In this document: piece by piece, positions 25,164 to 26,189 of the stretch
Layout: the number at the start of each line of letters is the position of its first letter
Numbering within the stretch: the stretch's first letter is position 1
From: Bryobacterales bacterium
GTDB lineage: Bacteria > Acidobacteriota > Terriglobia > Bryobacterales > Bryobacteraceae
Direction of reading: 5' to 3'
Length of the DNA stretch: 64,000 bases
Assembly: GCA_003164035.1 (NCBI GenBank)
Contig: PLRS01000168.1
Location: forward strand, 62,001-126,000
Made by a program: the position numbers and the translations under genes
Notes under the pieces: model-generated
Database searches by the model: none
Told to the model about the DNA's origin: nothing
What the model saw: only the letters and a program-made list of their open reading frames with translations

Positions 25164-26189
25164 GTGTACGCTCAGTTCGGTTATCAGAGATCACCGTGGC
25201 GCACGCACTCCTGCGTGCCGCGTCGAGTCTCTACTCGACGCCTCTGCGCCCTGCGGCGGCGGGCGCCACTATTACTCGTGCTCGCCCTGGCCTCCCTCTT
25301 CGCCGCCTGTTCCCCCGCTCCGCCGGCCCGCAAAACCATCGCCATTATTACCCCCTCTCACGACAATCCCTTTTTTAAAGCCGAGGCCGACGCCGCCGCG
25401 GCCCGCGCCGGCGAATTGGGCTACCTTACCACCGTGAATTCCCACGACGACGACGCCCACCGGCAGGATGAGCTGATCGACGTGGCCGTCGCCAATCGCG
25501 CCTCCGCCATCGTGCTCGACAACGCCGGCGCCGACGCCACCGTCGCCGCCCTGCGCAAAGCCAAGGCCGCCGGCATCCCCTGCTTCCTGATCGATCGCGA
25601 AATCAACGCTACCGGCGTGGCCGTGGCCCAGATCGTCTCCAATAATTACCAGGGCGCGCAATTGGGCGGCCAGGAATTCGTCCGCCTGATGGGTGAGAAA
25701 GGCTCCTATCTGGAACTGCTGGGGCGCGAATCGGATAATAACGCGCAGATCCGCACGCGTGGGTTTCACGACGTGATCGACCGCTATCCCGGCCTGATCC
25801 TGGCCGGGCAGCAATCGGCCAACTGGAGCCAGACCGAAGGCTTCCAGAAAATGGAAACCATGATTCAGGCGCATCACGGCGTAAAGGGCGTGATCGCCGG
25901 TAACGACACCATGGCGCTGGGCGCCCGCGCCGCTCTCGAAGCCGCCGGCCTGGACAAAGTGATCGTGGTCGGTTTCGACGGCAGCCCCGACGCCATCGCG
26001 GCGGTCGGCCGCGGCGCCCTGGAAGCTACCGTGCTGCAGCCCGCCAGCGTGATTGCGCGCCTAGCCGTGGAAGAGGTCCACAAGTTCCTGACCACCGGCG
26101 CCACCGGCGCGCCGGAAAAACAATCCATCGATTGTGAACTGGTCACGCCCGCCAACGCCGCCGAGTTCGGCCTGTTCGGGCGAAAATAG
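25164..26189 (+). CDS. Sugar ABC transporter substrate-binding lipoprotein (RbsB type), repeat-derived leader
   Basis: A periplasmic-binding-protein family lipoprotein of 341 residues. The lipobox LASLFAAC places the acylated Cys at about residue 49. The mature part follows the ribose-binding fold ([54 protein letters not shown]). The GTG at 25164 follows GAGGAGG with good spacing. Residues 11-26 are encoded by a family E palindrome half (25196-25240), giving an unusually long basic leader. A GTG at 25215 inside the repeat is the only later alternative that keeps the signal peptide. Substrate probably a pentose or related sugar. Confidence 0.9.
25196..25240 (+). repeat. Family E half-element inside the binding-protein leader
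   Basis: GTGGCGCACGCACTCCTGCG and TGCCGCGTCGAGTC, then CTCGACG, match the first half of the repeat at 17339. Here it is in frame and translated as part of the lipoprotein leader, if the GTG at 25164 is used. Confidence 0.7.

Follow-up and report, generated by a model that had tools for sequence, protein, structure and literature searches.

A REPIN derivative probably tolerated in the signal-peptide n-region of a sugar-binding lipoprotein from a Bryobacterales genome

Introduction

A repeated palindrome stands at the very beginning of the gene for a sugar-binding lipoprotein in the 64,000-nucleotide stretch of Bryobacterales DNA analyzed here (the window), and the question raised by this locus is whether the repeat has become part of the leader of the protein or only lies in front of it. 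The window is within contig C140 of a host genome of 8.01 Mb in 169 contigs, and the gene belongs to a sugar ABC operon with the order ATPase, permease, lipoprotein and a protein with a fucose-isomerase C-terminal domain. The ATPase gene (22718-24181, + strand; Pfam ABC_tran, 1.9e-49; a home-made gene call with an approximate start) is followed by the permease gene (24178-25161, +; BPD_transp_2, 3.9e-41), whose stop codon TGA occupies 25159-25161, by the lipoprotein gene, which encodes 341 amino acids when read from GTG 25164 (25164-26189, +; Peripla_BP_4, 1.5e-52), and by the gene for the L-fucose isomerase C-terminal domain protein (26200-27609, +; Fucose_iso_C, 2.2e-30).

REP sequences have been defined by a GTAG or GTGG foot located 0 to 2 nt before a hairpin with a basal stem of 7 to 20 bp and a loop of 2 to 5 nt, and "double foot" REPs have been described as the products of a central deletion of an inverted dimer (PMC6006769). 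Di Nocera, De Gregorio and Rocco (2013; PMC3733652), who also mention acidobacterial tyrosine transposases, reported that REPs are mainly extragenic and that some lie in frame inside open reading frames, also at NH2 termini; they cautioned that many of the NH2-terminal cases may be extragenic, with the true starts perhaps downstream. In-frame REPs are already known, and the signal-peptide n-region is a niche that we did not find in the cited passages of these papers. In this study, we describe evidence that a REPIN, presumably mobilized by a RAYT (REP-associated tyrosine) transposase, is probably tolerated in such an n-region, where it would be translated from GTG 25164 as part of a long leader.

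Results

The repeat in the window is a REPIN derivative of 74 nt (25196-25269, +) that runs from a GTGG foot to a CCAC foot and aligns to the full 113-nt elements at L174:9198-9310 and L199:9476-9588. The alignment has a single gap, corresponding to 39 nt (13 codons) of the right arm: the window copy keeps the GTGG foot, the left arm and the middle, and after the gap resumes with the right foot, of which GCGCCAC (25263-25269) remains, the deletion lying just 5' of it with an ambiguous exact junction. The initial annotation had described a half-palindrome ending at 25240. Its left arm, at 25196-25243, is indeed an arm of a high-copy palindrome, but the second foot carries the element on to 25269, and we rejected the lone-arm reading because the sequence retains its right foot and aligns as a whole to complete elements. 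The same string had been pointed out at 17339, where it does occur, with changes, but as one part of a complete family-E REPIN, an extragenic inverted pair without assigned strand (17339-17451). When the element at 25196-25269 is folded as DNA, three hairpins form (z -4.94), two of them in the left arm (25201-25218, +, with a 7-bp stem and a 4-nt loop; 25220-25241, +, with a 9-bp stem and a 4-nt loop). The foot is GTGG, followed after 1 nt by the 7-bp stem with its 4-nt loop, as in the REP rule.

Family E is abundant in the host genome. The pattern GTGGCGCACGCACNNNTGCGTGCC occurs at 88 + 82 = 170 places genome-wide with up to 3 mismatches, and the reversed-pattern control at 0 + 1. The 13-mer alone matches the window 3 times (up to 2 mismatches) against 5.55 expected, which is not above chance, so that significance comes from the longer pattern and from its count over the entire genome, not from the 13-mer. 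The first 1.48 Mb contained 146 arms, forming 50 inverted pairs, most commonly 113 nt long, and 46 single arms. After 8 of these 96 elements had been set aside as weak, 86 of 88 were intergenic by our home-made gene calls and 2 were inside genes; the intergenic ones lay between tandem (53), convergent (21) or divergent (8) genes or at edges (4). The window copy was scored as intergenic in this survey because the gene caller starts its gene at 25278. A wider survey of dispersed repeats of all families covered 2.67 of the 8.01 Mb, with many regions picked around E copies and RAYT genes, and placed 441 of 471 intervals between genes, with 25 overlapping a gene and 5 inside one (185 of 656 intervals, shorter than 25 nt, having been dropped), where 66% of the sequence is coding. 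The distribution of the pattern over 37 genomes, searched with up to 2 mismatches, is patchy, with 235 (G030), 185 (G036), 153 (the host), 133 (G020) and 22 places in five of them and 0 to 6 in each of the remaining 32.

Y1_Tnp (IS200-like) matches number 12 in the genome, and E arms lie beside two of these genes, on both sides of the one in L067 and on one side of the one in L072; the gene in L063, which ends at a contig edge, was not read in register for this arm survey. The L067 protein shows, by eye, the motifs NHVH, WQ and YIEDNP. It passes Pfam Y1_Tnp (31.6 bits, cut-off 23) and falls short of NCBIfam REP_Tyr_transpos (69.5 bits, cut-off 80), a miss that weakens the label of the gene and leaves that of the repeat unaffected. 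By its GTGG foot, hairpins, inverted doublets, mostly extragenic location and arm-framed RAYT, the window repeat is of the REP/REPIN kind. Known systems share these traits to different degrees. The REPs of PMC3733652 are likewise mainly extragenic with some in frame, form inverted dimers and frame RAYT genes. Those linked to TnpAREP subclass 2.4 (PMC6006769) have in common with ours the GT[AG]G foot next to a hairpin and the NHVH, WQ and YIxxNP motifs, a likeness by motifs in which YIEDNP of L067 stands against YIxNNP; the double-foot form and frame-keeping insertions are also found in both, although the insertions described there sit in RAYT genes, unlike the window copy. The REPINs of Pseudomonas fluorescens SBW25 (PMC3116915) are also extragenic inverted REP doublets accompanied by RAYTs, but they belong to a different sequence family and phylum, and the passages cited here are not about insertions in coding sequence.

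The RAYT frame in L067 (1390-2283, - strand) itself crosses its own downstream REP arm (ending in SLDAARTSACATLG) and meets a stop just past it; the repeat supplies the C-terminus, as the frame runs through the arm. Five further Y1_Tnp genes (L065, L066, L069, L070 and L071) have high-copy non-E repeats on both sides, and from these the host genome may contain several REP/RAYT pairs. At L298 (about 1300-1430), two copies of TTCTCGACAAAATG, separated by about 117 nt, flank a palindrome next to a RAYT gene, and this pair is possibly a duplication made on insertion.

The reading frame from GTG 25164 to 26189 is open from a Shine-Dalgarno start, through the element and into the conserved protein. 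The initial annotation had considered this GTG well placed, and the wider comparison agrees: AGGAGG (25150-25155, +) lies 8 nt upstream, and the closest orthologues start at this place. These orthologues come from contigs named Bryobacterales, Solibacteraceae or Acidobacteria; eight were compared (G025, G028, G011, G012, L073, L076, L078 and L083), of which three of the first four seem to be the same as L077, L075 and L074, while L079, L080, L082 and L084 are outside the count. The context GGAGTTGA-n-ATG is found in G025, G028 and L078 and resembles our own GGAGTTGA-AA-GTG; G011 and G012 have a different context, slightly farther from the permease after a short gap, and the start of L083 was read by eye from the protein. 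All eight (69 to 75% identical) lack the element. Of the four G-series orthologue genomes, three yield no match to the pattern and the fourth yields 3 (up to 2 mismatches).

The leaders differ accordingly in length. The hydrophobic core and the cysteine were located by eye and with a loose pattern. Counted from GTG 25164, the presumed lipobox cysteine (25308-25310, +) is residue 49, versus residue 18 to 22 from the ATG in the orthologues (n = 8), and the n-region preceding LLLVL comprises 35 residues with a net charge of +9, versus 4 residues with +1 or +2. The long, basic n-region of about 33 residues proposed initially is thereby upheld, as is the in-frame position of the repeat, whose arm spans residues 11 or 12 to about 27 (earlier given as about 11 to 26). 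A comparison of orthologous leader lengths had been suggested as a check, and it returned eight short leaders without the repeat and none that shares the long one. The extra length of about 28 residues is made up of the 74-nt element together with a few codons 5' of it, and the element itself would encode about 25 additional, arginine-rich residues. The presumed lipobox is LFAAC, with F at the -3 position, a residue unlike that of the usual lipobox.

Translation could instead begin inside the repeat, at GTG 25215 (25215-25217, +) or the near-cognate CTG 25251 (25251-25253, +), which would make the element effectively untranslated 5' DNA and the reading from 25164 a by-product. A start at CTG 25251 gives a leader of 20 residues, similar to the 20 to 21 of four orthologues; the codon model prefers a start still farther downstream, at GTG 25278, which is the start assigned by our gene caller, so that codon use does not mark the repeat stretch as coding; and most REPs at the 5' ends of open reading frames in three species were deemed possibly noncoding by Di Nocera et al. 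(PMC3733652). However, 25215 and 25251 both fall within the element, the former in a hairpin, and neither has a Shine-Dalgarno sequence, whereas GTG 25164 has AGGAGG at the place where the closest orthologues begin. We regard an internal start as unlikely.

The strong folding of the region (z -2.31 for RNA of 25140-25300, beside the DNA value given above) and the frequency of REPs between codirectional genes (53 of 88 E elements) would also suit an RNA element that damps translation of the lipoprotein or protects the upstream mRNA, its coding being incidental. Rfam gave no match within 24900-25700, the first hairpin begins 37 nt past the start codon, outside the initiation site, and such a role does not predict the core-specific frame bias described below. 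An RNA function, which is compatible with a translated leader, seems to us rather improbable as the explanation of this locus.

Could the gene simply have an open frame through a neighboring intergenic REPIN by chance? Most of the REPIN frames inspected are open anyway: in five hand-picked REPINs, 21 of 30 frames (six frames each) are stop-free, with net charges of 0 to +11, and the all-gene test below shows no bias toward openness. Nevertheless, a start at the place used by the closest orthologues precedes the element, which puts the element inside the gene provided that the start has not shifted, and we consider pure chance very improbable.

The translated-leader reading gains from a second gene. 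A full 113-nt REPIN in L199 (9476-9588) follows GGAGGTGCGAG-ATG, which carries GGAGG, and precedes the signal-peptide core of a protein that Pfam assigns to the M16 peptidases. Seven relatives were fetched; L293 and L297 are cut by contig ends and, being out of register, were left aside, and all five readable ones start with a Shine-Dalgarno sequence directly before the core, as in L292 (GGAGGTGCGAA-GTG), whose context is nearly the same as that of L199, and L294 (GGAGGCGCCAA-ATG). In neither gene does simple excision restore the old frame. Removal of exactly 74 nt from the lipoprotein gene leaves it off by one, as does removal of exactly 113 nt in L199, which means that at least one further base was gained or lost.

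L187 was considered as a third clean case and was downgraded: its start context is like that of its relatives, yet the gene upstream in the relatives does not end there in the host genome, and repeats and the RAYT gene of L069 lie just upstream. A DUF2752 open reading frame in the window (33346-33960, -; Pfam PF10825, 58.4 bits) crosses a palindrome of another family (33814-33905) at residues about 18 to 48, upstream of its membrane part. The initial annotation had taken it as a companion case; none of the possible starts ahead of the repeat shows a recognizable Shine-Dalgarno sequence.

The pattern was then followed in 195 genes with a palindrome at most 150 nt upstream, with gene calls, Shine-Dalgarno scores and hydrophobic-core calls all home-made; this frame test was conceived after inspection of the first 1.48 Mb had brought the pattern to light, and loci fetched later served as the held-out set. 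Among the 45 genes with an open gap and a hydrophobic core, the frame of the gene was open through the palindrome in 41, against 60 of 90 for the other two frames (Fisher p = 0.0013), and an upstream ATG or GTG with a Shine-Dalgarno sequence was found in 9, against 3 of 90 (p = 0.0026). Permutation of frames within genes gave p = 0.001 for openness and p = 0.0025 for starts. The nine include the window gene, and exclusion of the window left 8 of 42 (permutation p = 0.006). No such bias was seen in the 58 genes with an open gap and no core (open, 37 of 58 versus 78 of 116; starts, 1 of 58 versus 4 of 116) or in the 92 with a closed gap (open, 57 versus 116 of 184; starts, 4 versus 7 of 184). 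Restriction to called starts downstream of the element removes the bias of the caller, and here the frame was open in 33 of 36 versus 52 of 72 (p = 0.015), with Shine-Dalgarno starts in 7 of 36 versus 3 of 72 (p = 0.015). In an earlier test, all genes together (56) had no openness bias (44, 41 and 41 in the three frames), with upstream Shine-Dalgarno starts in 8, 3 and 4. The held-out loci alone (14 genes) were not significant, either for openness (13 of 14 versus 21 of 28; p = 0.18) or for starts (3 of 14 versus 3 of 28; p = 0.31).

A general coding role for palindromes at 5' ends is unsupported by these counts, there being no openness bias in all genes together or in genes without a core. 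The earlier proposal that such palindromes are tolerated as N-terminal extensions fares unevenly: the second case in L199 and the core-restricted frame bias speak for it, but most copies are intergenic and the held-out loci do not reach significance.

Discussion

The history that we consider probable for this locus would begin with a REPIN, a nonautonomous palindromic element moved by a RAYT transposase, of which the arm-framed gene in L067 may be the representative. A copy would have landed in the lipoprotein gene a few codons past its start, where it separated the n-region from the hydrophobic core, and an in-frame deletion would later have removed 39 nt of the right arm. Translation from GTG 25164 through the element would yield a leader of 48 residues with an arginine-rich n-region, and the Sec/signal-peptidase II route would presumably still recognize the core and the lipobox, so that the extra residues would depart with the leader, with little consequence for the exported protein. 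Tolerance may have been helped by the palindromes themselves, as stop codons are scarce in them and most of their frames specify largely basic peptides, a suitable content for an n-region; from the same properties, we infer that a basic and disposable n-region is among the few coding places that would suit these elements.

Unlike the NH2-terminal cases of PMC3733652, the start context here resembles that of orthologues, and the niche is a signal-peptide n-region. The main text of that paper, as distinct from the list of target open reading frames in its Additional file 3, contains neither "membrane" nor "lipoprotein", and neither of its uses of "signal" refers to a signal peptide. Among the matches listed for open-licence papers, searched by title and start of abstract, none concerned a REP, REPIN, Rickettsia palindromic element (RPE) or miniature inverted repeat in signal peptides. 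RPEs, as cited in PMC3733652, are likewise palindromes translated inside proteins, and NH2 termini decorated by RPE-1 were reported to be expressed in vivo, but they are not described there as confined to signal peptides. What is likely new here, judged from sequence comparisons, is a REPIN derivative in a signal-peptide n-region, backed by orthologous leaders in two genes and by the core-specific frame bias.

Whether signal-peptide n-regions are a general landing niche, where REPINs moved by RAYTs repeatedly become n-regions of exported proteins, is a more tentative proposal, which we find possible but on balance doubtful. If it were true, mobile DNA would write and lengthen leaders across such genomes, and the niche would explain where extragenic palindromes enter proteins harmlessly, namely, in a variable, basic and discarded stretch. 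Unusually long basic leaders annotated in such genomes could be explained in the same way, and caution would be advisable when gene callers meet REPINs at gene starts. The predicted rule is that in-frame REPINs near gene starts are concentrated in n-regions, and only in those of exported proteins.

Two other in-frame occurrences were observed inside genes. A related palindrome (4 mismatches) at L161 (2584-2693) lies in frame within ribonuclease R, where it separates the RNB domain from the S1 domain, and a family-E arm at L199 (15591-15638) lies in frame within a fused MFS/spermidine-synthase gene.
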